DNA from: Kiritimatiellia bacterium
GTDB lineage: Bacteria > Verrucomicrobiota > Kiritimatiellia > RFP12 > UBA1067
Assembly: GCA_017525225.1 (NCBI GenBank)
Contig: JAFXTB010000007.1
Span: 1 to 51,159, forward strand
Direction: 5' to 3'
Length of the DNA: 51,159 bases
A model generated the notes under the pieces. The model made no database searches, was not told the DNA's origin, and saw only the letters and a program-made list of their open reading frames with translations. This document shows positions 4,477-30,745 of this stretch, one piece after another. A program made the translations under genes and the position numbers. Each line of letters opens with the position of its first letter. Position 1 is the first letter of the stretch.

Positions 4477-4506
4477 TTGACAAGATCGCAGGGATGAGGG
4501 TATAAT
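4477..4506 (+). promoter_or_regulatory. Consensus sigma70 promoter of the passenger-like gene
   Basis: TTGACA (4477-4482) and TATAAT (4501-4506) are both perfect consensus boxes, 18 bases apart. The spacer resembles that of the promoter at 16922-16950: both contain CGCAGGG and run into GGG just before the -10 box. Confidence 0.85.
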
Positions 4507-4568: not shown

Positions 4569-7103
4569 ATGCAGACAAACAAGACAGTCGTAGGCGCAAT
4601 TTCCTTGCGCTATATGTTCGCCTTGGCTTTCGCCATTTCCGTACACTCGGTCGCCATCGGCGGCTATGGCGACCTGCCGGACACGTTCGATGCCTCTACT
4701 GGATATGTCACCCTCAACACGTCCGATACGGCGGGGAACGATGGGCATTCGTCGTTCTTCGATGGTACCAACTGGTCCGACACTCGGCCGCCGCATTCCG
4801 ATACCAACTACTATGTCGCTAGCGGCAAGATGTTCGGGACGCCACGCCAGGCTGCGTACACCGAGGCTCAGCTTGCGGTTGATCCAACCGCGCTCACGTT
4901 CAAGGGGAACATCCTTGTCTGCGCAGGTGAGGTGCGTGGACAGTCCTACACGTATGAATTCGAGATTCCCGACTTGCGGATGCTGCCGGGCGCCAACTTC
5001 TACTGGGCGTCGCCTTGGCCCCAGGTGCTTGGCAAGGTGACCACATACGGCACATCCTCAACTCCTGTGAGATTCGACTACTACCTGTCCGGGGACGAGT
5101 ATCTGCAGAACTTCGGCATGGATATGAAGTCCGACTCGTCCAGCTACCTTATCGTCAGGGCGCCACGCGCTGGGGACAGGGCATCGAAACTGGCCTATAC
5201 GGGCTACATCGTGATGACTGGCGACCTTTCGGAATACTACGGGACTCTGAAGGCCAGCGCCCAGCTGCTCAGCGACGCCACCAACCACTACGCAAACTAC
5301 GGATTCGGCCTGGCGGCTTCTGCTTCCAACGCCACGGTTGTACTTGAGAAGAAGGGCGGGATTCTTGCGATGGCGCCAGGCGGCGCCGAGGTCCGTCGCC
5401 TGTCCATCGATGGTGCCGAAACCCTCATACGCATGAAGTCCGAGAATCTCTCGCATGATGCGCCTAGACTGACCGTCGGCGAAGAACTGGCCCTCAACGG
5501 CCATAGTGTACGGCTCGAGCTTAGTGACTTCGTTCATAAGGGCAGTTCGCGGTATGAATTCCCGCATGCCAATCCGAACCCGGCAGAGGACGTGGCGCTC
5601 ATCCGGCTTAAGCCTGCGACCGTCACGAACGGCGGGTTCGGCGAGGTGAACGAGATGTTCGCATGGGCGGATCCGATGGCGGCGGCGAAGTCCGAGTGGC
5701 GTCCCGATCCGGACGGCGGCATGACGCTGTGGCGGCTTTCATACGTCACCAACAATGTGGGCGATAGCGAAACGCGTTCCTGCATGACCAATGCGTTGAC
5801 GACAGGCGGCAAGAACCAATGGAGCGATGGGATGAACCCAGCCGATCCCGATGCCGCGTCCAAGCGCTATTTCACAAGCTTCACCATACATGTACCGAAG
5901 GCGACGTCAACCACTCCCTTTTCTTTCGGCGGCGGATCTCTTACCATGTACAAATCCAGCTTGAACACGTATTCTGCTGGATATGGCTTCTACTGTTCCG
6001 AGCTTGTCCTGAGAGGGGCAAACTTCATGCTCTGCAACGCGAACATACAGAGTCCTACCAGGTTAAACGAGGATGATGGCGGCAAGTACAACTTCTACAG
6101 GTTCCAGGGGAAGATCCGGGTGCCGGCCGGCTACTCCAACACCTGCTATGTGTGGGGTACGCGCCAGGTCATGCGCGTAGAGGCCGAGGTCGAGGGCGGC
6201 GGCCGTCTCGTTTGCACCCCGTACAAATCGTCCAACTATATTAACGACAGCGCCTACTACGAGTTCACGGCGTTGAACACCAATTTCACCGGCAAGATAT
6301 CTATGAGCATGGCGTACGATAGTACGAAGTACGCTTCGCAGGGCATCGTGGTCCCCAACTGGACGCAGCGTCCGCGGCTTTTCGTCTCCGACGAGAGGAA
6401 CCTCGGCGGCCGGTGCGAGGAGTTTGTCTGGGATTCGCTTCTGCTCGAGCACTATTCGGACCTCTTCCCGCTCAACGACGTGACGTTCACAGATGGATGG
6501 AACCGCGGCATCGCCATCGGCGACATCGGGCGCATGAAGGTGCAGAGCGGCCTTACGCTTACGATACTGCGTCCGCTCAACGTGAACGGGCATTTCGTGA
6601 AGGAAGGGGACGGCACGCTCGCGCTCGGCGGCAGGCTTGCGTTCAACGGCGCCGCGCAGAGCGCCACGCCCACGGCCGGCAACAACCTTTTCACGATCAT
6701 GGGCGGCTCGATCAAGCCGCTTTCCACCAACGCCTTCGATGGCCTCGCCATCACGTTCACCAACAACGCCTCGATCAAGCTCGATGCCACCACGGCGGCC
6801 GATGGCCTGCTGGACTACGGCATCGTCGACTTGAAGGAGACAACGTCCCCGATCACGCTTGCGGCGAACAAGGCGTCCATCCCCGTGACGGTTGCGCCGC
6901 CCGCCATCGCCACGCCGCATTTCGCCGTCGCCATCTGCACGATCGGCTCCGGTCCTGCTGCCGGTCTGCAGGAGTCTGTGTTCTCGGTCGCCCATGCGGC
7001 TCCATACCGCTTCCGCCGCGTGGAGAAGCGTTCGAACGCCGACGGTTCGGTGACCTACCTCGCGCATTTCTGCCGCAAGGGCCTTGTGGTCAGCATCAAG
7101 TAG
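4569..7103 (+). CDS. Large secreted beta-rich protein with autotransporter-passenger-like motif
   Basis: The 844-residue product has an N-terminal signal peptide (hydrophobic YMFALAFAISVHSVAIG). The body is rich in Thr, Ser, Gly and Tyr, without a recognisable catalytic domain. Near residue 685 the stretch FVKEGDGTLALGG resembles the autotransporter-associated beta-strand repeat (K-x-G-x-G-T-L-x-L-x-G), so a surface-displayed beta-solenoid is plausible. The C-terminus ends RKGLVVSIK, similar to the tail of the PA14-like protein at 22407 (PRGLTINFK). GGAG at 4557-4560 lies 8 bases before the ATG at 4569, so this start is preferred over the GTG at 4560. Function is unknown. Confidence 0.75.
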   Translation: MQTNKTVVGAISLRYMFALAFAISVHSVAIGGYGDLPDTFDASTGYVTLNTSDTAGNDGHSSFFDGTNWSDTRPPHSDTNYYVASGKMFGTPRQAAYTEAQLAVDPTALTFKGNILVCAGEVRGQSYTYEFEIPDLRMLPGANFYWASPWPQVLGKVTTYGTSSTPVRFDYYLSGDEYLQNFGMDMKSDSSSYLIVRAPRAGDRASKLAYTGYIVMTGDLSEYYGTLKASAQLLSDATNHYANYGFGLAASASNATVVLEKKGGILAMAPGGAEVRRLSIDGAETLIRMKSENLSHDAPRLTVGEELALNGHSVRLELSDFVHKGSSRYEFPHANPNPAEDVALIRLKPATVTNGGFGEVNEMFAWADPMAAAKSEWRPDPDGGMTLWRLSYVTNNVGDSETRSCMTNALTTGGKNQWSDGMNPADPDAASKRYFTSFTIHVPKATSTTPFSFGGGSLTMYKSSLNTYSAGYGFYCSELVLRGANFMLCNANIQSPTRLNEDDGGKYNFYRFQGKIRVPAGYSNTCYVWGTRQVMRVEAEVEGGGRLVCTPYKSSNYINDSAYYEFTALNTNFTGKISMSMAYDSTKYASQGIVVPNWTQRPRLFVSDERNLGGRCEEFVWDSLLLEHYSDLFPLNDVTFTDGWNRGIAIGDIGRMKVQSGLTLTILRPLNVNGHFVKEGDGTLALGGRLAFNGAAQSATPTAGNNLFTIMGGSIKPLSTNAFDGLAITFTNNASIKLDATTAADGLLDYGIVDLKETTSPITLAANKASIPVTVAPPAIATPHFAVAICTIGSGPAAGLQESVFSVAHAAPYRFRRVEKRSNADGSVTYLAHFCRKGLVVSIK

Positions 7104-16885: not shown

Positions 16886-16921
16886 TGCCCCCCTTGGATT
16901 GCCATTTATAATTGTTTGCGA

Positions 16922-16950
16922 TTGACAAAAACGCAGGGGGGGGGTATAAT
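16922..16950 (+). promoter_or_regulatory. Consensus promoter with a nine-G spacer tract driving the glycan operon
   Basis: TTGACA (16922-16927) and TATAAT (16945-16950) are perfect boxes at the optimal 17-base spacing. The last nine spacer bases (16936-16944) are all G and abut the -10 box. Gain or loss of a G would change the spacing, so the promoter has the form of a phase-variable switch, here in the ON spacing. Confidence 0.85.
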
Positions 16951-16983
16951 TTTCATGTTTAAGATTTTTCAAGGAAGAAGATC

Positions 16984-18702
16984 ATGCTTGCCAGCATTCT
17001 GATTGCAGCGACCATCGCGGCAACGCCAACGGTCGATATTTTGGAGGCATCCCTAGCGGAACGGGATGCAGCGAACGATCGTTCCTGGAAGGAACTGGCG
17101 GATGCCGCAGCCTTCGCCGCCAAGAGGGATGCCTTTCGCGAGACTTTCCGGTACAAGACCGGCTTCCACGACATCGTCCGCACTCCCCTCAACGCGCGGA
17201 CGGTGGGGCTCAAGGCATACGCCGGCTTCCGCATCGAGAAGGTGATCCTCGAAAGCGCGCCTGGTGTCTACATCGCGGCGCTTGTGTTCCTGCCGGACGA
17301 AGCGAAATACAAGCCGCCATACGCCGGCTTTATATTCATCCCCGGACATTCCGTCACAGGGAAGTCCGCGCCCAACTACCTCCACACATGCGAGCTGGGT
17401 GCGCGCAACGGCCTCGCCGCGATCGTCTACGATCCCCTTGGCCAGGGGGAGCGTTCGCAGGGCGCTGGACTCAAGACCTCGCACGAGCATGTACGCATCG
17501 GCGCGTATGCGTCGCTCGTGGGCGAGACAACGACAACCTACATGCTGAGGGATGCGGTGCGCGTGCTCGACTATCTCGCATCGCGGCGGGACATCGACGC
17601 CGAGCGCCTTGGCGCCAGCGGCTGCTCCGGCGGCGGCACGCTGTCCTCGTACCTGATGGCCGTGGATCCGAGGGTCAAGGCCGCCGCCCCTACGTGCTAT
17701 CTTTCGTCCGCCCGCGAGCATCTGCTGGCCAATGGGCCCCAGGACGCCGAGCAGAACTTCTTCGACGAGCTTTCGTGGGGCTTCAACCACGCCGCGCTCA
17801 TCTTCGCGGCCGGATGCCCTGTGCTGATCAACGCGGCCGTGGAGGACTTCTTCCAGATAGAAGGGGCCCGCTCGACCTATCGTCTGGTGAAGGATGTCGC
17901 CGGCCGCGCAGGACTGCCGCCAGACTGGCATGCGCTCGCCGAGGCTCCCGGGCCGCACGGCATGTCGAAGTTCCATCGTGAGGCGGCGGTCGGGTTCCTT
18001 CTCAGGCATTTCAAGGGCGAGTTCAGGCCTGTCATGGAGACGGAAACCACCGATTTCCAGCCGGCGGATTCCATCGTGACCCCCGACGGCGAGGTGTCGC
18101 ATCTTGCCGGATTCAGGCCGGTATACGACGAGCTGTCCAAGAAGTTCGAAAAGTCGGGCGTCTCGGTGGAACAGGCTGCCGTCAACGCCCGGGAGCTGGT
18201 GCTGAAGGAGCTGGATGGAGAAGGGTGCTGCGAAGTCCTGCAGACGCTCAAGGGCGACATTGCGAAAGGCCGCTGCGCGACGCTTCGCCTGGGCGGCAAG
18301 GCGATGCCGGGGGAGGTGGCCGTGACGCTGTACGCGGATGCCGGGCGCTACATCCTGCGCGAGAAGCGCCGTGGCAAGCGCTCCTACTATGAACGGCGGC
18401 TGGACGACGAGGTGGTGGCGGTGGATTTCTACATCGCAGGCCGGTCGCTCGCCGCGTTCCGGGCCGCCGAACTGCTGAAGGTCGCGGAGGAGCTGGAACG
18501 GCGCACGGGCATGAAGCCCAGGCTCGTGGCCGAAGGCCGCTTCGCCACGCCTGCGAAATTCGCGATCGCGGCGAACCCGTCGGCGTTTGCCTCCGTGGAG
18601 TTCAAGGATGAGCCGCCGCCCTGGCGGAAGATGCTCCGTGATCGGGCATATCTTTCGTTCGCCGATTCCGGCGCGCTTTATTCAGGAAGGATGGGAAAAT
18701 GA
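16984..18702 (+). CDS. Secreted alpha/beta-hydrolase (acetyl xylan esterase-like)
   Basis: The 572-residue first gene of the operon begins with a short signal peptide (MLASILIAATIAATPT). An alpha/beta-hydrolase fold follows, with the nucleophile in GASGCSGGGTLSSY (G-x-S-x-G, near residue 215) and a likely catalytic histidine in GPHGMSKFHRE near residue 325. The arrangement (FIPGHSVTGKSAPNY, YDPLGQGERSQG) resembles large bacterial acetyl-ester hydrolases. A ~200-residue C-terminal extension has no motif I recognise. AAGGAAGAAG precedes the ATG by a few bases. The next gene starts within its stop codon. Confidence 0.75.
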   Translation: MLASILIAATIAATPTVDILEASLAERDAANDRSWKELADAAAFAAKRDAFRETFRYKTGFHDIVRTPLNARTVGLKAYAGFRIEKVILESAPGVYIAALVFLPDEAKYKPPYAGFIFIPGHSVTGKSAPNYLHTCELGARNGLAAIVYDPLGQGERSQGAGLKTSHEHVRIGAYASLVGETTTTYMLRDAVRVLDYLASRRDIDAERLGASGCSGGGTLSSYLMAVDPRVKAAAPTCYLSSAREHLLANGPQDAEQNFFDELSWGFNHAALIFAAGCPVLINAAVEDFFQIEGARSTYRLVKDVAGRAGLPPDWHALAEAPGPHGMSKFHREAAVGFLLRHFKGEFRPVMETETTDFQPADSIVTPDGEVSHLAGFRPVYDELSKKFEKSGVSVEQAAVNARELVLKELDGEGCCEVLQTLKGDIAKGRCATLRLGGKAMPGEVAVTLYADAGRYILREKRRGKRSYYERRLDDEVVAVDFYIAGRSLAAFRAAELLKVAEELERRTGMKPRLVAEGRFATPAKFAIAANPSAFASVEFKDEPPPWRKMLRDRAYLSFADSGALYSGRMGK

Positions 18703-21503
18703 AAGTAAAGACTTCATTGCTCGGCGCCATTGCCGCGCTTGCCGCAGTTGTCGCGCAGGCGGAGGGGCCGGTGGTCGGATACATGCTGGATGTCTCGCGG
18801 AACAAGGTGCCGACGATGGCATCGCTGTATCGCATGGTGGATGTGCTCGCCGAACTCGGCTACAACCAGTTCCAGCTCTATACCGAGCACACATTCGCCT
18901 ACCGTGACCATGCGGTAGTCTGGAACGACGCCTCGCCGATGACGGCCGAGGAGGTCCGTGCGCTCGACGCCTACTGCGCCGGGAAGGGCATCGATCTCGT
19001 ACCTAACCAGAACTCGTTCGGACACCTCGAGAAATGGCTGGAGCATCCGAAGTACCGTTCGCTCGCCGAGGCGCCGGAGGGCGGGGTCAAGACTCCGTGG
19101 AAATCCACGATCGTTACGCCTCGGGCGCTCTGTCCGACGGATCGCAGGTCCCTGGAATTCGTCGCATCGCTCTACGACGAACTCCTGCCGAACTTTCGTT
19201 CGAAGCTGTTCAACGTCGGGTGCGACGAGGTATGGGAGCTTGAGAGCCAGGGCAGGGGACGCAGCTGGGAGGTCGTGAAGGAGAAGGGGCGGCAGCGCGT
19301 ATGGCTCGACTACTTCCGCGAGATATGCCGCCTGGCGGAAGAGCGCGGCAGGACGCCGATGTTCTGGGACGACATGATCGTCCGTCGGCATCCGGAACTC
19401 ATTCCCGAGCTGCCGGCCAACGCCATCGCGCTGGAGTGGGGCTACGAGATCAAGAAGGGCATCGATGCCGCGATCTTCGAGCGCGACTGCGCAAACCTCA
19501 GGAAGAACGGGCGGCGGTTCTATGTCTGCCCAGGGACTTCCGGATGGAATGCGATCACGGGCCGTCACTTCAACATGAAGACGAACGTCAACGAGGCTGT
19601 GAATGCCGGGCTCAAGCATGGCGCTGAGGGCTATCTGCTCTGCGACTGGGGCAATGGCGGCATGTGCCAGCCGTGGGTGACGGCCCTGCCGGCCCTCGTC
19701 TACATGCGCGCCAAGGTCGATGGACGTGAAATGACGGACGGCGAGATCGCCCAGGCCGTCGACCGCCTGACCGGCGCGAAGTGCGGCAAGGCGCTTCTCC
19801 GCTTCCAGGATCTCTACCGGCTGAGCGGCGAGCCCAATCCGAACAACCGCAACACGCTATACACGTTCATGTCCGATGGCGCGAATGGAAGGCGCCCCAG
19901 GGGACTGACGGATGCGGCGCTGGGCGCGGTGTTCGCCGAATACGAAGCGGCGAAGAAGGGTCTGGATCTGACCGGTGCGCCTGCGTGGGTTTCGGACGGA
20001 TTTGCGACAATCGACCTCCTGATGGAGACTCTGCGCCTGCGGTGGGCCGGCGAGCACGACCGGATCGCGCGCGAGATTCCGCCGCGCTACCGCGAACTGT
20101 GGCTCCGGCACAACCGTCCGGGCGGTCTGGACGAAAGCGTAAAGCAGAATTTCAAGCCTGCACATGTCTGCGAGGTGCTCGTGTGCTTCGATACCGAGGA
20201 CTACACGTGCGCCAAGAACGCGGATGGCATCGTCGAGCTGACGAAGATCTGCATCGAAGAGGGCGTCATTCCGCATCATCAGGTTGTTGGCGAAATGGCG
20301 AAGGCGCTTGTCGGGTGGAAGCGCGCGGATGTGATCGAATTGATGAAGCATGCGTTCATCGGCACCCAGACGCGATACCACACGCTGCATCCCGACATCC
20401 TCGAACTCTCGGATGGAGCCGACTATGCGGCGGCCTACCGGCGCGTGTGGGAGCAGGAGAAGGAGTGCGCGGACATCCTCAAGGATGTTTTCGGCGTGAA
20501 ACGCCTGTGGGCGAGCTGCCCCCCAGGCAATTCCGAGTCGTATGTCGCCAACCGCGTCTATGCCGATCTCGGCATCACGTTCGATCTTGGCGCGGGATTC
20601 CTTGAACCGACCGGGGCCGATGTCTGGTTCGCCGGTCAGCGCAGGATCGCATACGGGCTCAATTTCGAGTGGCTCCAGCGCCAGAAGCGCCGCTATGACT
20701 GGGCGAAGGACGGCAAGCGCCTGCTGGATGAATGGGCCGGACAGGACCGGTTCTGCCTCAACTGCCATCCTAACAAGGTGTTCTCCACGGAGTTCTGGGA
20801 CGGCATCAACTACCGGCGCGAGAACAAGGGCAAGTGGGGCGCGTGGATCCAGCCCAAGATGCGAGACCTGGACGAGGTGCGCGAGTACCTTGCCAACGTC
20901 CGCCGCGTCATGCGCGACATCAAGGAGGACCCGAGGTTCAGGTTCGTCACGATCCCCGAGATAGCGGCCACGCAGAAGCCGCGTGTCGCATTGACGCGGA
21001 AGGACATGGGGGCGATCCGCGCCGAATGGGCGGCCAAGGGAATGGGGCCGGTGCGTACACCGGCCAGCTGGAGCGTGGCGGACGTGTTCTGCGCGGCCGT
21101 GGCGATGCTGAAGGGCGAGAAGGAGTTCATGCCGGCGAACGCCTACGGTTTCCTCGAGATGCCGGTCTCGTCGCCCCGGCAGATGGATGTCACGCGCGCG
21201 GAGATCGTCGCGGCGGCGAAGGCGATGGATACGTCGTCCTTCCTCCCGGCGCGCATCGACCTCGACGGCGGAAAGACGATCGGCCCCCGCCAGTTCCTCT
21301 ACGCGGCGCTCGAGTTCCTGGTCAGACCGGTCGATGTCTATACCGTCATCCCCGGCGACCAGCTCGGATCGTTCGCGCCGCTCAGGAAGCTCGAATTCCG
21401 GACGCACCGCAACACATGGCTGCACTGCCCGCCGCCGGTGTTCGAGGACGCATACGCCTCGGACCGTCTGCGCTGGCAGATATGGACGCTCAGGTACGAG
21501 TAG
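18699..21503 (+). CDS. Secreted GH20-like hexosaminidase fused to a polysaccharide deacetylase domain
   Basis: The 934-residue product has a signal peptide (MKVKTSLLGAIAALAAVVAQA). Residues ~25-480 resemble GH20 catalytic barrels: YNQFQLYTEHTFAY, FGHLEKWL and the acid pair in NVGCDEVWE (D176, E177). Residues ~490-780 match NodB-type deacetylases: CFDTEDY near 498-504, the metal motif HTLHP near 560, and ASCPPGNSE near 605. About 150 C-terminal residues are unassigned. Together this suggests removal of N-acetylhexosamine units and of acetyl groups from one glycan; substrate and activity are inferred. It overlaps the esterase gene by 4 bases. Confidence 0.75.
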   Translation: MKVKTSLLGAIAALAAVVAQAEGPVVGYMLDVSRNKVPTMASLYRMVDVLAELGYNQFQLYTEHTFAYRDHAVVWNDASPMTAEEVRALDAYCAGKGIDLVPNQNSFGHLEKWLEHPKYRSLAEAPEGGVKTPWKSTIVTPRALCPTDRRSLEFVASLYDELLPNFRSKLFNVGCDEVWELESQGRGRSWEVVKEKGRQRVWLDYFREICRLAEERGRTPMFWDDMIVRRHPELIPELPANAIALEWGYEIKKGIDAAIFERDCANLRKNGRRFYVCPGTSGWNAITGRHFNMKTNVNEAVNAGLKHGAEGYLLCDWGNGGMCQPWVTALPALVYMRAKVDGREMTDGEIAQAVDRLTGAKCGKALLRFQDLYRLSGEPNPNNRNTLYTFMSDGANGRRPRGLTDAALGAVFAEYEAAKKGLDLTGAPAWVSDGFATIDLLMETLRLRWAGEHDRIAREIPPRYRELWLRHNRPGGLDESVKQNFKPAHVCEVLVCFDTEDYTCAKNADGIVELTKICIEEGVIPHHQVVGEMAKALVGWKRADVIELMKHAFIGTQTRYHTLHPDILELSDGADYAAAYRRVWEQEKECADILKDVFGVKRLWASCPPGNSESYVANRVYADLGITFDLGAGFLEPTGADVWFAGQRRIAYGLNFEWLQRQKRRYDWAKDGKRLLDEWAGQDRFCLNCHPNKVFSTEFWDGINYRRENKGKWGAWIQPKMRDLDEVREYLANVRRVMRDIKEDPRFRFVTIPEIAATQKPRVALTRKDMGAIRAEWAAKGMGPVRTPASWSVADVFCAAVAMLKGEKEFMPANAYGFLEMPVSSPRQMDVTRAEIVAAAKAMDTSSFLPARIDLDGGKTIGPRQFLYAALEFLVRPVDVYTVIPGDQLGSFAPLRKLEFRTHRNTWLHCPPPVFEDAYASDRLRWQIWTLRYE

Positions 21504-21518
21504 AAGGGGACCGCGGCC

Positions 21519-22367
21519 ATGACACTGCTTTTCCTTGCAGCGCTCGCCTCCGCCTCGGCGGTCTGTCCTCTTCCCGGGGATTGGACGCTCGACACCGAGG
21601 TCAGCGACGAATTCGACGGCGAGAGCCTGGACAAGGGCAAGTGGTGGGACTATGCGCCGCACTGGCCGGGTCGCCCCGGCGTCTACCGTACCCTGGCGAA
21701 GAACGTATCGCAGAAGGACGGCGAACTGCTGCTTCTGACCGACAAGGTTCCAGAGGCGGAGATTCCGTACGAGGCTCGCATGGACGGCATGCAGGGGTAT
21801 ACGTGTGCGCTCGTAAAGAGCCGCAGGAAGGTCAGATACGGCTATTTCGAGGCACGCATCAAGGCGACTCCTGCGGCAGTGCGCAACGCCTTCTGGCTCT
21901 ATGACCCGCTCAGCGACGACCTGAAGCGGAAATATTCCCCCGGCGACTTTTCCGAGGAGATCGACATCTGCGAGATCCTCGGCCGCCACCAGCCCGGCGA
22001 CGCCAGCCAGGAGTACAGGACGTCGCATTTCACGCACCACTACATGACGCCGTACTACGAGGGGGTCTGCAACAACCAGGATGTCCCGCTCGGCGTCATG
22101 AAGAAGCTGGATTTCTGCCCTAGCGCGGAGTACCACACCTACGGGCTGCTCTGGACCGAACGCGAGCTCGTGTGGTACATCGACAATGTGGAGAGCGCCC
22201 GCATGCCCACGGCCAGCTACGGGAACGGTGGCTTCCGCCGCCCGCTGCACGTCGTATTCGATACGGAGGTCAACAACTGGTCGGGTGCCAAGGTGGCGGA
22301 TCTGGACGCAAGGACCCTGCCCGCCGTGCAGCGGATCGACTGGTTCCGCCGTTGGGTACGCAAGTGA
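21519..22367 (+). CDS. Secreted GH16 endo-beta-glycanase
   Basis: The 282-residue product has a short signal peptide (MTLLFLAALASASA) and one GH16 jelly-roll domain. The catalytic motif EEIDICEIL at about 146-154 is the bulged E-x-D-x-x-E form found in laminarinases, kappa-carrageenases and related galactanases, not the unbulged lichenase form. Supporting family motifs are RYGYFEARIKATP and HTYGLLWTERELVWYIDN. It would cleave the backbone of a beta-linked glucan or galactan; the exact substrate cannot be read from sequence. The gene starts 15 bp after the GH20-like gene. Confidence 0.88.
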   Translation: MTLLFLAALASASAVCPLPGDWTLDTEVSDEFDGESLDKGKWWDYAPHWPGRPGVYRTLAKNVSQKDGELLLLTDKVPEAEIPYEARMDGMQGYTCALVKSRRKVRYGYFEARIKATPAAVRNAFWLYDPLSDDLKRKYSPGDFSEEIDICEILGRHQPGDASQEYRTSHFTHHYMTPYYEGVCNNQDVPLGVMKKLDFCPSAEYHTYGLLWTERELVWYIDNVESARMPTASYGNGGFRRPLHVVFDTEVNNWSGAKVADLDARTLPAVQRIDWFRRWVRK

Positions 22368-22406
22368 GTCAATTTCCGAAAACAAGACAATGAAGGAGCA
22401 ACCAAG

Positions 22407-24164
22407 ATGAGAACCGGAAAACTAGCGCCATGCATCCTTGCGGTGCTTGGATCATGCATGGCGGCGCATGCGGACATCCTTGTGGACTGGTCGCAGGTGG
22501 CAGGCCTTCGCACCTACACGAACGTTCACAACCAAACCGCCTGGGAAGGGACGCTTCCCGCCTCCGAGACTTCACCCTATCAGGGGATCACCGAACTCGG
22601 GGTTGGAGTGGCTACAAACAGCAATGCCCACATCTACTTCGCGGACGGGAGTGCCGAGAACAAGATGCTCTCCTATTGCGGCTACATCTGGAACGACTCG
22701 GAGACGACCGAGAACTGGACGTTCGCCTGCTGCATGGATGCACATTCGAAACTGTTCATCGACGGTACGCTCGTCATAAACCAGAACGTGCGTTATACAG
22801 GCAAGACGGCCACCATCGCCATCTCGCCAGGGGCGCATGCCTTCGAGCTCCGGTATCGCCGTGGTGGCGGAACCACGGGCGCGACGCAGAAGAACAGCAT
22901 TACGAACTTTGACGACGAAGTGTTTTCCGGTGGCACGGGCGCTTCAGGCGGCGAGTGGGCCAACAAATTCGGCTTCGGCATAGACCGCCAGGGGCGCGGT
23001 TCGCACAAGTACAAGGACTACACGGCCCCGTTCGACTCTGGAAACGGCGCACTCTTCACCTGGACCACGAACTACAGCGGCATTGCGGCGCTCGACATGA
23101 AGAGCGGGACATATCGCTATGCCGCACCGGTGTACGACTATTCTGGAGTAGCCGGTCTCGCCGAATATACGAACCTATACAACGGGGCAGCGTGGACAGG
23201 TACCGATCCCGCGTACATTACCTCGCCGTGCCAGGGGATAACGTCGCTCTGCGTCCGCGTGGCATATGATGAAAACAACGGGGCTGCCTATTATGGAGAT
23301 GGTATTCCGGACTACAAGATGGTGTCCTATTGCGGCTACATCTGGAACGACTCTGATTCGACCGAGAACTGGACGTTCGCCTGCTGCATGGACGCGCAGT
23401 CCAGGCTGTTCATCGACGGGAATCTCGTTGTCGACCAGTCTGTTCGCAAGACATGCAATTCTGCCACATACTCCATGACGCCAGGAGCCCATGCATTTGA
23501 ATTCCGCTATAGGAAAAACGGGGGCTATTCCTGTGCAATACATAAGGCAATCATGGAGAAGTTCGACAGCGAGACATTCTCCAACTATGTCGGTGCCGAT
23601 GATGGACTCTGGACAGCGAAGTTCGGCTTCGCGATCGACCGGCAGGGACGCGGCACGCACAAATACACGGACTACACGGCACCTGTCGATACTGGCGACG
23701 GGCTGCTTTTCTGCGTGTCGACGAATGTGGACGACGTCATACGCTTCGACCATCGCCCGGTATTCACCAACATGACGTTCGCGCCGAACACGACCTTGGA
23801 CCTGAATGCCGGGCAGTTCACGATATCCGTGGAAAACATAGTGGGCCTTCCAATCGTCACGAACGGCAGCCTGAAGGTGACTGGCTCCTGGACGATTCCT
23901 TCCGCCGATGTCGCCGCCGGCGCCGTCCTGGAGGCCAGCGGGGCGTTCACGCTCGAGGACGGCGCGGTGCTTTCGGTAGCGGATGTTTCGGGACTTCCCG
24001 AGCAGACCGTCGTGATCTTGCGTGCTGCGGGCGGACTGACCTTGCCTGCGGGCGTTGATGGGCGCGCTTTGGTTCCGTCGAAAAAGTACATTCTGGAGCA
24101 GACGTCGCCAACGGAACTTTCGATCAAGTATGCTCCTAGGGGCCTTACGATCAACTTCAAGTAG
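22407..24164 (+). CDS. Secreted protein with two PA14-like repeats
   Basis: The 585-residue protein has a signal peptide ending near residue 22 and two tandem homologous modules (about 24-220 and 238-440). Each carries SYCGYIWNDS, ENWTFACCMDA and S-K/R-LFIDG followed by FGF-x-IDRQGRG and HKY-x-DYTAP. The D-x-x-S-x-L-F-I-D-G core resembles PA14 domains, which often bind sugars. The rest is beta-rich, and the protein ends PRGLTINFK, similar to the tail of the passenger-like protein at 4569. GGAG lies 9 bases before the ATG. It is probably the glycan-binding or surface-anchoring member of the operon. Confidence 0.7.
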   Translation: MRTGKLAPCILAVLGSCMAAHADILVDWSQVAGLRTYTNVHNQTAWEGTLPASETSPYQGITELGVGVATNSNAHIYFADGSAENKMLSYCGYIWNDSETTENWTFACCMDAHSKLFIDGTLVINQNVRYTGKTATIAISPGAHAFELRYRRGGGTTGATQKNSITNFDDEVFSGGTGASGGEWANKFGFGIDRQGRGSHKYKDYTAPFDSGNGALFTWTTNYSGIAALDMKSGTYRYAAPVYDYSGVAGLAEYTNLYNGAAWTGTDPAYITSPCQGITSLCVRVAYDENNGAAYYGDGIPDYKMVSYCGYIWNDSDSTENWTFACCMDAQSRLFIDGNLVVDQSVRKTCNSATYSMTPGAHAFEFRYRKNGGYSCAIHKAIMEKFDSETFSNYVGADDGLWTAKFGFAIDRQGRGTHKYTDYTAPVDTGDGLLFCVSTNVDDVIRFDHRPVFTNMTFAPNTTLDLNAGQFTISVENIVGLPIVTNGSLKVTGSWTIPSADVAAGAVLEASGAFTLEDGAVLSVADVSGLPEQTVVILRAAGGLTLPAGVDGRALVPSKKYILEQTSPTELSIKYAPRGLTINFK

Positions 24165-24167
24165 GCA

Positions 24168-26165
24168 ATGGTTATGAAAAGGCTTCTTGTTGCGGGGATC
24201 CCGTCGATTGCCGTCGCATCCCTGTCGCTCCTGGGACATGCGGCTGGGCCGGTTGTGGTGGACGTCCCGGCGGGAGCGCGACTGGACGCCGTCCGGGATC
24301 GTGTCCGCGCCATGCCGGCCGACCAACGCGCTCGCGGTGTCGAGATCCGGCTCGCGTGCGGGACGTACGAGCTTGGCGATGCGGGCTTGATGCTTGATAC
24401 CCGCGACTCCGGAAGCGTTTCGGCGCCGGTCGTCTGGCGCGGATCGCCAGGCGGGGGTACGCGCTTCGTCGGTGGACGCGCGATCCCGACTGCGGCCTTC
24501 AAGCCGGATCCGTCGCGTCCAGGAGTATTCGTCGCCGACATCTCGGGCTGGCGGGCGGAGTGGCCGGCCAGACGGAACAAGGCGGACAAGTATGAATACC
24601 TTCCGTATCCAGTGCCGGAACTCTATGTGGACGGGCGGCGCATGCGCCCCGCCGGCTGGCCGAATGTGGTTGGTGGCGAACTTGATGGATGGGAGGATGG
24701 ATGGACGACGTTCGATCGGGTAGTAGACCCCGGGACGAACAAGGTGGATTGCGGTACGTTCGCATACCATTCGCTTCGTCCCGACATGTGGGTGAACGAG
24801 AAATTCGCCTATCTGCTCGGCTTCTGGGGCTGTGAATGGCGAGCCGAGGAGATTCCGATCGAATCGATCGACACGAAGGCGAAGACGATTACGCTTGGCA
24901 GCTTCTCGCAGTATTCGCTCAAGGAGATAGTCGACTGGACAAACAGACCACGTCGCTGGCGTGTCATGAACGCACTCTGCGAACTTGACGCTCCTGGCGA
25001 GTGCTATGTCGACATTGAGAAGAGTAGGGTCTACGTCCTGCCGTCAAGGCCGCTCTCTGAAGCCGGGGAGATGCGTCTGTGCTGGCGCGATCCAGACCTG
25101 GTGTCGCTGGACCGGGTCGCCTGCGTGGAGATCCGCGATATCTCGTTCGGCCCTGCCTGGCGGAGTGCGATTGCCGGGACGGGAGTCACGAATGTTGTCA
25201 TCAGCGGCGTATCGGTGCGCAATGTGCGACTGGGGGCCATAGTGCTTCATGGCGCCGACCATTGCCGCGTGTCGGATTGTGACATCGCCGACATAGGGGC
25301 AGGGGGTATAGAGGTCGTTGGCGGCGATCGGCGCAATCTCGTCCCCAGCGGGAACGTGATCGAGAACAACCTCGTCCACGATTGCGGCAAGATCAGGCTT
25401 ACGCACACCTGGGCGATAATGACCGAAGGCGTCGGCGACATCGTGCGGCACAATGAACTCTGCAATTCGATCCACGAGCTCCTTTTCGTGGATGGCAACG
25501 ATTGCCTGATCGAATACAACGTCATTTCGAACTGCGTCACTGGAACCGATGACTCCGGCGCGTACCACTGCGGGCGCAACATCTCCTGCAGAGGGAATGT
25601 GTTTCGATACAACCTGTTCTCGGACATCGGAAACCCAGAGTTCCGCGCGCAGACCGCGCTCTATCTCGACGACGGGCATTCGGGATGGACGATTGACAGC
25701 TGCGTGTTCCGCAATGTCCGTCGCAACACCGATTCCCGGGGATTCGGGGCGGTCCACTGCAACGGCGGGTATTCGAATGTCGTTCGCAACTGCGTGTTCG
25801 TCGATTGCGGCCGCGCACTCGGCTCGCGCTGGGTGTCGGACGAGATATGGAAGAGCTGGCTGAAGAGTCAGGCATGGCTTCGGCGCATAAAGGGCGCCGT
25901 CGATATTGAAAGCCCGGTCTACCAGACGCGCTATCCCGATCTCAAGGGTGTGATGCAGGGCTACCCGCGCAGCTACAGGTGGCAGGCTGCGGAGGACAAT
26001 GTCTTCATCCGGTGCCGGGAGACGTTCAGTGGCGGGAACTGGGCTACGAACAAATGGAATGCGGTCGTCTCCGAACCGGCTTCGGCTGACATCAATGCCG
26101 TCTGCCGCAGGAGGATCCCGCACTTCAGGCCGATCCCCTTCGACAAGATTGGAAGGATTAAATGA
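24168..26165 (+). CDS. Secreted right-handed beta-helix enzyme (GH141- or lyase-like)
   Basis: The 665-residue product has a signal peptide and starts 3 bp after the PA14-like gene (ATG at 24168; 24174 also possible). The N-terminal part (IRLACGTYELGD, VVWRGSPGGGTRFVGGRAI) matches the lead-in of GH141-type and related beta-helix enzymes. Residues ~340-560 contain parallel beta-helix coils such as NVVISGVSVRNV, CRVSDCDIADIG, NVIENNLVHDCG and CLIEYNVISNC. Known relatives include fucosidase/xylanase-type hydrolases and polysaccharide lyases, so the reaction is uncertain. It overlaps the GH2 gene by 4 bases. Confidence 0.7.
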   Translation: MVMKRLLVAGIPSIAVASLSLLGHAAGPVVVDVPAGARLDAVRDRVRAMPADQRARGVEIRLACGTYELGDAGLMLDTRDSGSVSAPVVWRGSPGGGTRFVGGRAIPTAAFKPDPSRPGVFVADISGWRAEWPARRNKADKYEYLPYPVPELYVDGRRMRPAGWPNVVGGELDGWEDGWTTFDRVVDPGTNKVDCGTFAYHSLRPDMWVNEKFAYLLGFWGCEWRAEEIPIESIDTKAKTITLGSFSQYSLKEIVDWTNRPRRWRVMNALCELDAPGECYVDIEKSRVYVLPSRPLSEAGEMRLCWRDPDLVSLDRVACVEIRDISFGPAWRSAIAGTGVTNVVISGVSVRNVRLGAIVLHGADHCRVSDCDIADIGAGGIEVVGGDRRNLVPSGNVIENNLVHDCGKIRLTHTWAIMTEGVGDIVRHNELCNSIHELLFVDGNDCLIEYNVISNCVTGTDDSGAYHCGRNISCRGNVFRYNLFSDIGNPEFRAQTALYLDDGHSGWTIDSCVFRNVRRNTDSRGFGAVHCNGGYSNVVRNCVFVDCGRALGSRWVSDEIWKSWLKSQAWLRRIKGAVDIESPVYQTRYPDLKGVMQGYPRSYRWQAAEDNVFIRCRETFSGGNWATNKWNAVVSEPASADINAVCRRRIPHFRPIPFDKIGRIK

Positions 26166-28993
26166 ACAGGGTTGCCATTTCATGTATCTCCGTCCTTGCC
26201 GTGTTCGCCGCCCATGCTGTCGACGCCACGGTGGAATGGGCCTTCAAGGATGCGATTTCGCTGGACGGCGCATGGGAGATGGCCTACAGCCCGTTCTTCC
26301 CGGAGGTGGACACATATCCGTCCTTCGAGGGGAAGCTCGTCCAGGAGGCGATTCCGGGGTATTGGGAGGACATGGTCCCCGCCTTTCGCGCGGCGGGCAT
26401 CGCCGACGAGTTCCGGATCAATCCCGAGTACACCGAACGACGCCTTCCGCAGCGCGGCTGGTCTCCTGATACGCAGCTGCCGCAGATCTACGGAACATTC
26501 TACTACAGGCGGCACATCTCCCTTTCCCGTACGCGGGGTGCGAGCCTTGCCTTCGAGGGCGTGCGGAACCAGGTGCAGGTGTGGGTGAACGGGCGTTTTG
26601 TGGAATGCCGCCGCGGGTATTCAACGCCGTTCACGATCGAGATACCGGAAGGGTATCTGAGGGATGGCAGGAACGAGATCGTCCTTGCGGTCGCGAACAA
26701 CCTCAATCTCGGCTATCTCGGCGCGGAGGTGCGAGGGTTGACGTCGCGGTCGATCTTCCGTGCGACCGGCGGAGTCAACGGCCATCTCGCGCTTGAATTC
26801 GTCGCGAGCGACATCGGCAACGTGGCGGTGACGACGGCGGACGACCTCATGTCGTTCACCATACACACGGGCGGGAAGGACCGGTGCAGGTACGAGATCG
26901 CCGATGGCGGGCGGATCGTGCGGAGCGGCGAAGGGGCTGGAGACATCCTCCTATCCTCGGAAGGCATGTCGTTCTGGTCACCGGAGTCGCCGAAGCTCTA
27001 TACGCTACGGCTTTTTCGCGATGGCCGCCGCTATCAGCAGAGGTTCGGCCTCAGGCGCCTGGCGGCGAAGGGCGACAGGCTGTTCCTCAACGGACGCCCC
27101 GTCTTCCTGCGCGGGGTCACCGAGCATTGCTACTTCCCGAACACGGTGCATCTGCCAAGGGACGTTGAATACTACAGGATGGTGACGCGAAGACGCAAGG
27201 AGCTCGGTTTCAACTTTGTCAGGTTCCATACCTTCATACCGCCGGCGGAGTATCTTGATGCGGCGGACGAGGGGGGCATGATGATAGAGATCGAGTCGCC
27301 GAATTTCGTGACCGAGCGGGAGTACGCGGCGATCATCGCGTTCGCGCGGCGGCATCCTTCCGTCGTGATGTACTGCACCGGCAACGAGACGCGCATCGAC
27401 AGGCTCGCCGAGGTATATCTGGAGGAGATAGCCGACATGGTCCATTCCAGGACGGACTCGCTCTTCTCCCCGATGAGTGCGCTCAAGGGCGTGTCCTATG
27501 GCGTATACGAGGCGGTGGAGCCGGTAGTGAAGAAGCCGCACCGGCACAACGAGGAACGGGCGGCGCGGCTTGCGCGGTACAGCGACGTGTTCAACGCCTT
27601 CTGCGACAACGCCACATCCTACAACTACATCGGGGGCAGGACGGCGGCGGAAATCGATTCCTGGTCGCCGTTCTATTGCCGCAAGCCGAGGCTTCTGCAT
27701 GAGATCTGCATCGACGGGACGTATGCCGACCTGTCGCTTGAGGGGCTGTACCCGAAGGATTCCCCGATTCTCAGGACAGGCCTCTTCTCGGAGGTGCGGA
27801 GGGTGCTGTCGGAAAAGGGGCTCGTCTCCAGGGCCGGGACATACTTCACCAACTCCTGCGCCTGGGTGGCGCTCGGGCGGAAGTACGCCTTCGAAAAGGC
27901 GCGCGCCTGCAGGACCGTCGCCGGTTTCGACTTCCTCGGCGACATCAACACGCACTGGCATACCTTCGGGTATTCGGTGGGGATGATGGACGAGTTCTAC
28001 CGCCTCAAGCCGCACGAGACGGTGAAGAATGTCCTCCGCTACAATTCCTCCGCCGTGCTGCTGGCCGACTTCGACGCCGATTTCGTGTTTCCCTCCCGTA
28101 AAGTCAGGAATACGTCGTTTTCAATCTCGAACTTCGCGAGGGATATGCACGGCGGCACGCTGACGGTCTCCCTGGAGGATGACGGAGGGCATGTGGTTTT
28201 CTCGCGACGCATCGATTCAGTCCCCGCGTCGTTGGGAGAAGTCACCAGGCTCGCCACGGTCGATATCGCATTTCCGGACGCAGCGATGCCGCAGAGGCTC
28301 CATCTGTCGGCACGTCTCGTAGCCGAAGGCGTCTCCGTGGAGAACCGCTGGGACTGCTATGTCTTTCCGAAGCCTGGCGAGGTGTCCGGCGGGGCGCAGG
28401 TTCGTGTCTGCACGGACATCTCGCGGGATGATCTCCTTTCGGCCATGTGGCGCGGCGAACGGGTGCTGCTGCTCGGCAAGGGGCCGTTCAAGACGTCGCC
28501 AATGACCTTCTGCACGGGGCGGCCGGGGCGGTGCGGCGGCAATTTCGCCACGGTAGTGAAGGCGGGGCATCCTGCACTTGAGGGATTCCCGCACGATGGA
28601 TATTGCTCCTGGCAGTTCCGGCGGATGATGGAGGGTGCCTCGGCATTCCAGCTCGAGTCGGATGTTCCGTTCGACCCGATCATCGATGTCGCAAGTTCCG
28701 TCAAGCTCCCGATCCGCCAGGCTGCGCTGTTCGAGTACCGGGTCGGCGGCGGTCGGCTTCTTGCGTGCTCGTTCAATCTCCACGCGGACGATCCGGCGGG
28801 CGTCTATCTGTGCTCCTTGCTTTGTCGCTATGTCGCGTCCGGTGCGTTCGTACCTTCGGCTACGTTGACGGTCAACGATCTGGCCGCGCTCGTCGACACG
28901 CCGCAGGTGACGTCGAAACGCGATCCGAACCGAGCCATGAACCCCGGGGATCCGGCCCGCTACATCCGGATGGGAAAGGACCTAATGCCATGA
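26162..28993 (+). CDS. Secreted GH2-family beta-glycosidase
   Basis: The 943-residue product has a signal peptide (MNRVAISCISVLAVFAAHAVDA). A GH2 sugar-binding domain follows (YGTFYYRRHISL, VWVNGRFVECRRGYSTPF), then an Ig-like domain and a TIM barrel. LNGRPVFLRGVTEHCYFP is the typical GH2 barrel entry, and the acid/base glutamate lies in CTGNETR near residue 407. A ~270-residue C-terminal extension is unassigned. The family removes beta-linked galactose, glucuronate or mannose from glycan ends; specificity is not visible. Its ends overlap both neighbours by 4 bases. Confidence 0.85.
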   Translation: MNRVAISCISVLAVFAAHAVDATVEWAFKDAISLDGAWEMAYSPFFPEVDTYPSFEGKLVQEAIPGYWEDMVPAFRAAGIADEFRINPEYTERRLPQRGWSPDTQLPQIYGTFYYRRHISLSRTRGASLAFEGVRNQVQVWVNGRFVECRRGYSTPFTIEIPEGYLRDGRNEIVLAVANNLNLGYLGAEVRGLTSRSIFRATGGVNGHLALEFVASDIGNVAVTTADDLMSFTIHTGGKDRCRYEIADGGRIVRSGEGAGDILLSSEGMSFWSPESPKLYTLRLFRDGRRYQQRFGLRRLAAKGDRLFLNGRPVFLRGVTEHCYFPNTVHLPRDVEYYRMVTRRRKELGFNFVRFHTFIPPAEYLDAADEGGMMIEIESPNFVTEREYAAIIAFARRHPSVVMYCTGNETRIDRLAEVYLEEIADMVHSRTDSLFSPMSALKGVSYGVYEAVEPVVKKPHRHNEERAARLARYSDVFNAFCDNATSYNYIGGRTAAEIDSWSPFYCRKPRLLHEICIDGTYADLSLEGLYPKDSPILRTGLFSEVRRVLSEKGLVSRAGTYFTNSCAWVALGRKYAFEKARACRTVAGFDFLGDINTHWHTFGYSVGMMDEFYRLKPHETVKNVLRYNSSAVLLADFDADFVFPSRKVRNTSFSISNFARDMHGGTLTVSLEDDGGHVVFSRRIDSVPASLGEVTRLATVDIAFPDAAMPQRLHLSARLVAEGVSVENRWDCYVFPKPGEVSGGAQVRVCTDISRDDLLSAMWRGERVLLLGKGPFKTSPMTFCTGRPGRCGGNFATVVKAGHPALEGFPHDGYCSWQFRRMMEGASAFQLESDVPFDPIIDVASSVKLPIRQAALFEYRVGGGRLLACSFNLHADDPAGVYLCSLLCRYVASGAFVPSATLTVNDLAALVDTPQVTSKRDPNRAMNPGDPARYIRMGKDLMP

Positions 28994-30264
28994 GCCTAAT
29001 AACCGTATCCTTCGCGGCCGCTTCGCTGTGCGCCGCCACGCTGCCGCCGTTCCCCTCCTTTTCGCCGCCGCGAGCGGTCACCGGAGGAGAACACGACCAT
29101 TTCCTCGCCAACTACTTCGCAATCAACTGCTGGAGTCCAGACAATCGCTACATGCTGACCCTCGAGACGGACATCAAGAATACATTGCCGGATGGAAGGC
29201 CGTGCGTGCTCGGACTCGTGGATCTTGCGGACGGGAACCGGTTCATCCCCGTGACAACCACGCGGTGCTGGAACTTCCAGGAGGCGACGATGGCCCACTG
29301 GGTTCCGTGGGCGAAAGACACCTTCGTGTTCAACGACATCCGCGATGGCCGTTTCTGCGCGGTGATGATGAACTGGAAGACGCGCAGGGAGCGGGTGTTC
29401 CCCGGCTATCCGGTAAGCGCCGTATCCGAGGATGGGGCGTTCGCACTCTCCATCAACTATGCGCGGCTCTACTGCACGCGGCCTGACTATGGGTACGCCG
29501 GACGCGGGCAGGATCCACGGCTCGGCACGGTGTTCCCGGAGGATGACGGCATCTTTCGCCTGGACCTGCGCACCGGCGAGGCCCGGTTGATCGTCAGCTG
29601 CGCATCGGTACGGGACCAGGTGCCGCCCGTGACGGGTACGAACGGTCTCAGCTACCTCTGCCATACGGCCATCTCGAAGGACTTCCGGAGGATATTCTTC
29701 CTGTCGCGTTCGGTGGGTGAACCGAACGAGGGCGGGCGGAAGAAGAAAAGGGTGCGCTGGGAGACGACCGCCTTCACCGCAACCGTGGACGGGACGGACA
29801 TCAGGCGGTGCTTCCCTGACGGATGGGGTGCATCGCATTTCAACTGGAAGCCGAACCTGTCCGTGCGCGATGCCGCGACGATGGTGGTGACATGCAACGT
29901 GAACGGCAACCGTCGCGTATGCTCGCATGTGGAATTCGTTGTAGGGGAGGAGGAAAAGGTCCGCAGGATCGGCGGAGCGGAAATGGACTTCGACGGACAC
30001 TGCATCTACTCCCCCGACGGAAGATTCGTCAGCGGGGACGGCTACTGGGACAAGAACTATTTCCGCCACTGGAAGATCGTGCGTCTTGCGGACGATGCCG
30101 TCAGGGACCTTGGCTCGTACTTCATCCCGGAGATATACCGTCATACCTACTGTCGGTGCGACCTTCATCCGCGATGGCGCCCCGACGGACGCCAGATCGC
30201 CTTCAACTCGGTACACGAGGGGACTCGCCAGGTCTACGTGATGGATGTCACGGCAGGGAAATAG
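28990..30264 (+). CDS. Secreted beta-propeller protein, oligogalacturonate lyase (PL22)-like
   Basis: The 424-residue product begins at the ATG inside the GH2 stop codon (ATGA), followed by a signal peptide (MSLITVSFAAASLCAA). Propeller blades are seen as CWSPDNRYMLTLETD, HCIYSPDGRFVSGDG and LHPRWRPDGRQIAFNSVHEG, the TolB/PL22 type. PL22 enzymes split short galacturonate oligomers in the cytoplasm, so a secreted relative may act on another uronate or only bind. It is the last gene of the operon; a new promoter lies 67 bp downstream. A longer frame from 28603 is rejected because it overlaps the GH2 gene. Confidence 0.65.
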   Translation: MSLITVSFAAASLCAATLPPFPSFSPPRAVTGGEHDHFLANYFAINCWSPDNRYMLTLETDIKNTLPDGRPCVLGLVDLADGNRFIPVTTTRCWNFQEATMAHWVPWAKDTFVFNDIRDGRFCAVMMNWKTRRERVFPGYPVSAVSEDGAFALSINYARLYCTRPDYGYAGRGQDPRLGTVFPEDDGIFRLDLRTGEARLIVSCASVRDQVPPVTGTNGLSYLCHTAISKDFRRIFFLSRSVGEPNEGGRKKKRVRWETTAFTATVDGTDIRRCFPDGWGASHFNWKPNLSVRDAATMVVTCNVNGNRRVCSHVEFVVGEEEKVRRIGGAEMDFDGHCIYSPDGRFVSGDGYWDKNYFRHWKIVRLADDAVRDLGSYFIPEIYRHTYCRCDLHPRWRPDGRQIAFNSVHEGTRQVYVMDVTAGK

Positions 30265-30330
30265 TGGACCGTTCTGCGTAACGCAATCGCGCGGGCGCAT
30301 CCGCGAATCGTGCATTGTTTTGGATTTGCG

Positions 30331-30359
30331 TTGCCTTTGCGCGGGAAAAGGGGTATAAT
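30331..30359 (+). promoter_or_regulatory. Promoter of the TRL lipoprotein gene
   Basis: TTGCCT (30331-30336) and TATAAT (30354-30359) are spaced by 17 bases. The bases just before the -10 box are again G-rich (GGGG). Confidence 0.6.
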
Positions 30360-30412: not shown

Positions 30413-30745
30413 ATGAAGAAACTGATGATTGCGTCGGGCGCGCTCTGCGCCGCGCTGCTTACCGGCTGCTGCTCGCAGGGTGGCCCGATCACCACGGTCG
30501 CCATCACCGGAGGCATCGTGCTGGATCATCGTGCCCCTGGCGCGTTCGATGTCGACAACTCCGTGAAGTGCGCCAAGTGCGGCACGGCCACGAGCAAGGG
30601 CATCGTCCTGTACACCACCGGCGACAGCTCCATCAAGGCGGCAATGGATGCCGGCGGCATCACCAAGATCCACCACATCGATTTCGAGACCAAGAACATC
30701 TTCAACGTCTACACCGAGACGTCGACGATCGTCTGGGGCGAATAG
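30413..30745 (+). CDS. TRL-family lipoprotein
   Basis: The 110-residue protein has a lipoprotein signal (hydrophobic run ending LLTGC, Cys19). The mature part contains KCGTATSKGIVLYTTGDSSI, AAMDAGGITKIHHIDFE and TETSTIVWGE, the conserved pattern of the TRL-like family (small exported proteins of unknown role, named after a tRNA-associated locus). AAGGAGAAAC precedes the ATG. The FAD oxidoreductase begins 3 bp after the stop, so the two share a transcript. Confidence 0.8.
   Translation: MKKLMIASGALCAALLTGCCSQGGPITTVAITGGIVLDHRAPGAFDVDNSVKCAKCGTATSKGIVLYTTGDSSIKAAMDAGGITKIHHIDFETKNIFNVYTETSTIVWGE

Follow-up and report, generated by a model that had tools for sequence, protein, structure and literature searches.

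Among the promoters whose output depends on the length of a homopolymer, the closest known system to the one described here is that of meningococcal porA, in which tracts of 10G and 9G give approximately 2-fold and 13-fold less surface protein, respectively, than a tract of 11G (PMC3639595); changes in the length of the poly-G tract alter the promoter spacing (PMC3639595; van der Ende 1995, cited by PMC5084427). Long G/C homopolymers have also been proposed for phase variation in Akkermansia muciniphila (PMC3048395). In the current study, we describe a promoter with nine consecutive G in its spacer, located at positions 16922–16950 on the forward strand of a 51,159-nt stretch of DNA (the window), which is one whole contig (C115; JAFXTB010000007.1) of a 4.2-Mb, 180-contig genome of a Kiritimatiellia bacterium, probably of animal gut origin. 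The promoter belongs to a class that precedes predicted exported proteins, and the possibility that its G-run slips, as in porA, is weighed against other explanations.

The promoter at 16922–16950 and its class

The promoter is made up of the following parts:

16922–16927, forward strand: -35 box TTGACA, exact match
16928–16935, forward strand: constant spacer half AAAACGCA (class consensus AAAnCGnCA)
16936–16944, forward strand: pure G9 tract, candidate slippage site, which makes the spacer 17 nt long
16945–16950, forward strand: -10 box TATAAT, exact match

Both boxes are perfect (TTGACA-N17-TATAAT) and the spacer consists of AAAACGCA followed by G9, so that the original prediction, which had placed perfect boxes 17 nt apart with G9 abutting the -10 box, holds in its coordinates and letters. 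The distance between the hexamers falls within the 16–19 nt of sigma70-type promoters, and a gene with a ribosome-binding site lies downstream (ATG at 16984, with AAGGA 8 nt 5' of it). The tract between the boxes reaches the minimum of about eight identical bases of a porA-type promoter, and the controlled product is predicted to be exported. Transcription would be expected to start near 16955–16958. Dinucleotide shuffling of the window (100 replicates) gave no match to the pattern of this promoter or to that of a second one at 4477–4506, and the promoter is real and not a chance arrangement. A second TATAAT at 16907–16912, 38 nt 5' of the main -10 box, has no good -35 box and could be a minor promoter.

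The genome-wide statistics that follow rest on pattern and model searches. In the source genome, perfect boxes 14–20 nt apart gave 30 matches versus 2 in a reversed control, and about one-third of these 30 spacers are G-rich, with their bases in the same order. Tracts of at least nine G occur at 20 places in the 4.2 Mb, three of them within such spacers, each reading CGCA-G9/10-TATAAT. A profile built from nine sites recovered the G-rich promoters and a few weaker ones; the site at 16922–16950 was included in this profile, and its own score there follows by construction. Across 115 genomes of the family, the pattern TTGACA-N-GGGGG-TAWAAT matched 26 times versus zero times in the reversed control, and approximately 20 of these matches represent one class, with the constant half AAAnCGnCA and a G-run abutting the -10 box; a looser pattern brings in interrupted members and other promoter types.

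Altogether, 35 class members were collected from 8 genomes of one family, with the class present in four genera. Their consensus is TTGACA-AAAnCGnCA-G-rich-TAWAAT, with a constant half of 8–9 nt and conserved bases after the -10 box, and the promoter at 16922–16950 carries each of its parts (the AAAnCGnCA half, the G-rich half, TAWAAT, and an exported product). The strict pattern was absent from the 47 genomes that represent the order's other families, and the rest of the phylum sample yielded a single copy, in G426, which belongs to a different family within the same taxonomic class; there, a G11 tract precedes an exported protein. The distribution is patchy: in G001, the nearest genome and a member of the same genus, only one degenerate copy is present. 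Most class members of the source genome have an interrupted tract; the conserved feature of the class is G-richness and not the homopolymer itself, a point that the original prediction had overlooked. As judged from these patterns, the members constitute a lineage-specific class of putative sigma70-type promoters that is previously undescribed; a literature search returned no description of Kiritimatiellota promoters. A promoter-carrying mobile element was considered and rejected, as the flanks differ among most members, except for one block in genome G041 (see below) and a few promoter families.

The class promoters are predicted to drive exported and surface proteins. At least 30 of the 32 readable downstream genes pass a crude signal-peptide rule, compared with 68 of 212 background open reading frames (ORFs; Fisher 1e-11), and a 31st product has a Tat-like leader. 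Many of the products are long proteins of repeat or lectin-like type (PATR, Laminin_G_3, PKD, beta-propeller), and 20 of 29 readable ones end in GxxhxhK/R-COOH at the very C-terminus, as against 7 of 237 background ORFs (Fisher 1e-17), one of these seven being the fourth gene of the operon described below. We infer that this motif is a shared sorting or anchoring signal, a candidate for Kiritimatiellota; among the window proteins, which alone were scanned, no library model matched it. A known sorting-signal or domain family uniting the downstream proteins was also sought, with scattered domains but no general match as the outcome. The motif is common to large exported proteins (window 4569–7103 and 22407–24164; L169–L192).

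Tract length, slippage and rival explanations

The mechanism that we propose is a slippage-graded promoter, to which we give about an even chance. RNA polymerase with the main sigma factor would use the promoter at 16922–16950, and its G-run would belong to a class-wide G-rich spacer whose pure form doubles as a slippage site. Replication slippage would add or remove a G in a pure run such as G9, thereby shifting the distance between the -35 and -10 boxes about the favored 17–18 nt, and through the altered spacing the downstream operon would be expressed to different degrees in different cells, in the manner of meningococcal porA. Interrupted tracts would be the length-stable form of the same promoter. 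Since the class norm is a spacer of 17–18 nt, G9 (17 nt) and G10 (18 nt) should be active and G8 (16 nt) reduced. A gain or loss of one G at 16936–16944 should therefore tune, and not switch, the seven-gene operon, and the original prediction that one indel would switch all seven genes was overstated, given that both the class norm and the porA precedent point to a graded effect.

This mechanism fits the variable length of pure tracts from one locus to another. A pure tract is found in 19 of the 35 members, ranging from G5 to G12 with spacers of 14–19 nt (standard deviation 1.5), whereas the spacers of the 16 pattern-found interrupted tracts measure 18 nt (14 members) or 17 nt (2 members; standard deviation 0.34, or 0.66 when 8 homology-found copies are included, n = 24). 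Nearly all interrupted tracts have spacers of 17–18 nt. The difference in variance between pure tracts and the 16 interrupted ones has a permutation p of 0.0003, which becomes 0.002 with the 8 homology-found copies added and 0.016 with near-duplicates collapsed. The contrast drawn in the original prediction between pure and interrupted tracts is thus meaningful across the class, although its significance does not persist under every restriction, as discussed below.

More direct is a pair of loci in genome G041 (C98 and C179; L182 and L172), where a nearly identical block of about 620 bp runs from the end of the upstream gene across the promoter into the beginning of the signal peptide; the mature proteins differ. 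Among the few differences within the block are a 1-nt indel and a substitution in the tract, which is G10 in one copy and GGGGAGGGG in the other. Tracts also differ among orthologous or paralogous promoters of G035, G038, and G041. The junction of the G041 block to two different surface proteins is a sign of recent recombination or gene conversion.

Several observations weigh against slippage. The variance signal is lost when spacers are limited to at least 16 nt (p 0.17) and thus depends in part on a handful of very short tracts, possibly OFF states or promoters in decay; moreover, the promoters compared are not phylogenetically independent, and the strength of the test is moderate. The orthologous G8 tracts of G035 and G038 are identical in length. 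Pure tracts number 19 of 35, compared with about 15 of 35 expected by hand estimate for independent G-rich positions, so that this simple count shows no clear selection for purity. Hypermutation through lost mismatch repair was rejected on the finding of MutS in all nine genomes tested, and the presence of MutS would restrain slippage. Among known slippage tracts, nine G is also near the lower limit of length. Slippage in the living population and its effect on transcription are inferred, and the porA-like reading of 16922–16950 is plausible but unproven.

The main rival is a stable regulon element, in which the G-rich spacer would itself be recognized, either by RNA polymerase (as an extended -10 region) or by a regulator devoted to exported proteins, with the pure run incidental and its length drifting slowly; this has a considerable probability, if short of an even one. 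The interrupted majority in the source genome also allows such a role of the spacer apart from slippage, G-richness survives interruption by A or T (GGGATGAGGG, GGGGGGAAGG, GGGAATGGG), tract purity lies near the independent-position estimate, and the constant AAAnCGnCA half, together with the conserved bases after the -10 box, suggests selection beyond spacing. A stable element sits less well with spacer lengths that scatter in pure tracts and hardly at all in interrupted ones, or with the 1-nt indel between the two G041 blocks, and no regulator has been identified. An error of assembly or sequencing in the length of the G-run is very improbable: the genomes are fragmented in the manner of metagenome-assembled genomes (MAGs) and homopolymers are error-prone, but many independent assemblies have the same architecture with G7–G12 and intact boxes. 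Short-read consensus errors in a 9-base run are, in addition, uncommon. An ordinary promoter with a coincidental G-run has next to no likelihood, for while 17 of the 20 tracts of at least nine G in the source genome lie outside such promoters, the shuffles, the absence of control matches in 115 genomes, and the sharing of one class with exported products refute coincidence. The two leading readings could also be combined, with a regulator recognizing the G-rich spacer and slippage of pure tracts modulating its access, comparable to the repressor-dependent, combined control of meningococcal nadA (PMC2791445); the evidence for slippage and for a stable element serves this reading equally, but neither a regulator nor an operator was found, and we consider it unlikely.

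Should pure tracts slip, the outcome would be a porA-type system multiplied over a regulon. We tentatively suggest, with more doubt than confidence, a dispersed contingency regulon in which many surface genes carry a poly-G-spacer promoter, pure copies slip independently, and recombination spreads cassettes of promoter and signal peptide such as the G041 block. Each cell would then display a different mix of surface proteins and glycan enzymes; gut members of this phylum encode large repertoires of exported, glycan-active proteins. Existing reads allow the slippage claim to be checked without culture, and the combination of TTGACA-AAAnCGnCA-Gn-TAWAAT with the C-terminal motif would allow candidate surface proteins to be listed from any metagenome.

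The seven-gene operon and neighboring elements

The promoter at 16922–16950 is followed by seven genes:

16984–18702, forward strand: gene 1, exported AXE1-like esterase/hydrolase, 572 aa
18699–21503, forward strand: gene 2, exported, GH20-type catalytic domain, 934 aa
21519–22367, forward strand: gene 3, exported GH16, 282 aa
22407–24164, forward strand: gene 4, exported, weak PA14 match (just below the curated cut-off), C-terminus GLTINFK
24168–26165, forward strand: gene 5, exported right-handed beta-helix protein, 665 aa
26162–28993, forward strand: gene 6, exported, GH2 N-terminal sugar-binding domain, 943 aa
28990–30264, forward strand: gene 7, exported, short PD40/TolB-like propeller match, 424 aa, last gene of the operon

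The genes (16984–30264) are co-oriented, neighbors either overlapping by 4 bp or lying no more than 40 bp apart, and gene 7 begins with the ATG at 28990 rather than with the TTG at 28603 that opens the long ORF. All seven products have signal-peptide-like N-termini, and no further promoter-like site was found on the forward strand of 16950–30331. Because the genes are co-oriented, encode signal-peptide-like and glycan-type domains, and lack an internal promoter-like site, the name "secreted glycan operon" given in the original prediction is fair, and the architecture it described is plausible. The closest named relatives of gene 1 are from Kiritimatiellae MAGs (sheep rectum, horse faeces, and other sources); its nearest homologues (G000 C118, 68%; G001 C242, 63%; L072 and L073) have no such promoter directly upstream.

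Two further promoters of this kind lie in the window:

4477–4506, forward strand: second class promoter TTGACA-AGATCGCAGGGATGAGGG-TATAAT, exact boxes, interrupted tract GGGATGAGGG, 18-nt spacer
30331–30359, forward strand: weaker class-like promoter TTGCCT-N17(...GGGAAAAGGGG)-TATAAT, just past the operon end

The former, whose tract had rightly been called interrupted (with a spacer of 18 nt, not 17), precedes an exported 844-aa protein (4569–7103) with the C-terminus GLVVSIK; the latter, short of which the operon stops, precedes a small lipoprotein-like gene (30413–30745).

Other promoter types and repeats were observed in these genomes. A promoter whose spacer is palindromic, TTGACATACCCTACGGGGGTATGGTATAAT, recurs almost unchanged in more than 12 genomes of the family (e.g., G001:C124:31200-31229 and G044:C13:40028-40057), with related forms in the source genome (C10:4346, C134:23311); its spacer is probably the operator of a conserved regulator. 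Another type, TTGACA-GGGGGAAAAATGCG-TATAATATRYGCM, with a 15–16-nt spacer, occurs in the source genome at C74:18534, C89:78903, and C102:53899 (L045, L046, L047) and precedes exported-looking proteins whose start reads (A/T)TGK. A dispersed, MITE-like repeat (resembling miniature inverted-repeat transposable elements) of about 83 nt (L184, L192; query positions 1886–1968 and 841–921) has many copies in the genomes of one genus, frequently arranged as divergent pairs with about 60 nt between the two copies, and also lies upstream of a class promoter of the source genome (92.6% over 108 nt). In G038, a class promoter and its expected gene stand on separate contig ends (C77:1-132 and C197:5313-5468; L177 and L240), each adjoining other sequence, probably through an insertion or an assembly break between them.

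Comparison with known systems

An ordinary sigma70 housekeeping promoter shares the perfect TTGACA and TATAAT boxes and the 17–18-nt spacer, but not the G-rich spacer half or the strong bias toward exported products. Akkermansia muciniphila, a PVC relative, has long G/C tracts in a related gut phylum, although these lie inside capsule genes (frameshift type) and not in promoter spacers (PMC3048395). In Neisseria nadA, repeat length likewise alters the promoter geometry of a surface adhesin (PMC2791445); there, the spacing concerns distal promoter elements and acts via a repressor, whereas the tract here lies inside the core promoter.

The arrangement at 16922–16950 looks most like that of Neisseria meningitidis porA, with poly-G between the -35 and -10 boxes and a surface or exported product downstream (PMC3639595), and we claim this likeness without porA-type membership. 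Tract length alters spacing in porA, while the length differences here are those between loci and between near-identical blocks only. In contrast to porA, a single architecture with a constant AAAnCGnCA half-spacer recurs here in dozens of promoters and has interrupted siblings; the lineage, Kiritimatiellota, is for the most part uncultivated, and the window promoter drives an operon of seven genes. New features are the lineage, how many loci are built in this one way, the existence of interrupted siblings, and the association with a C-terminal motif.
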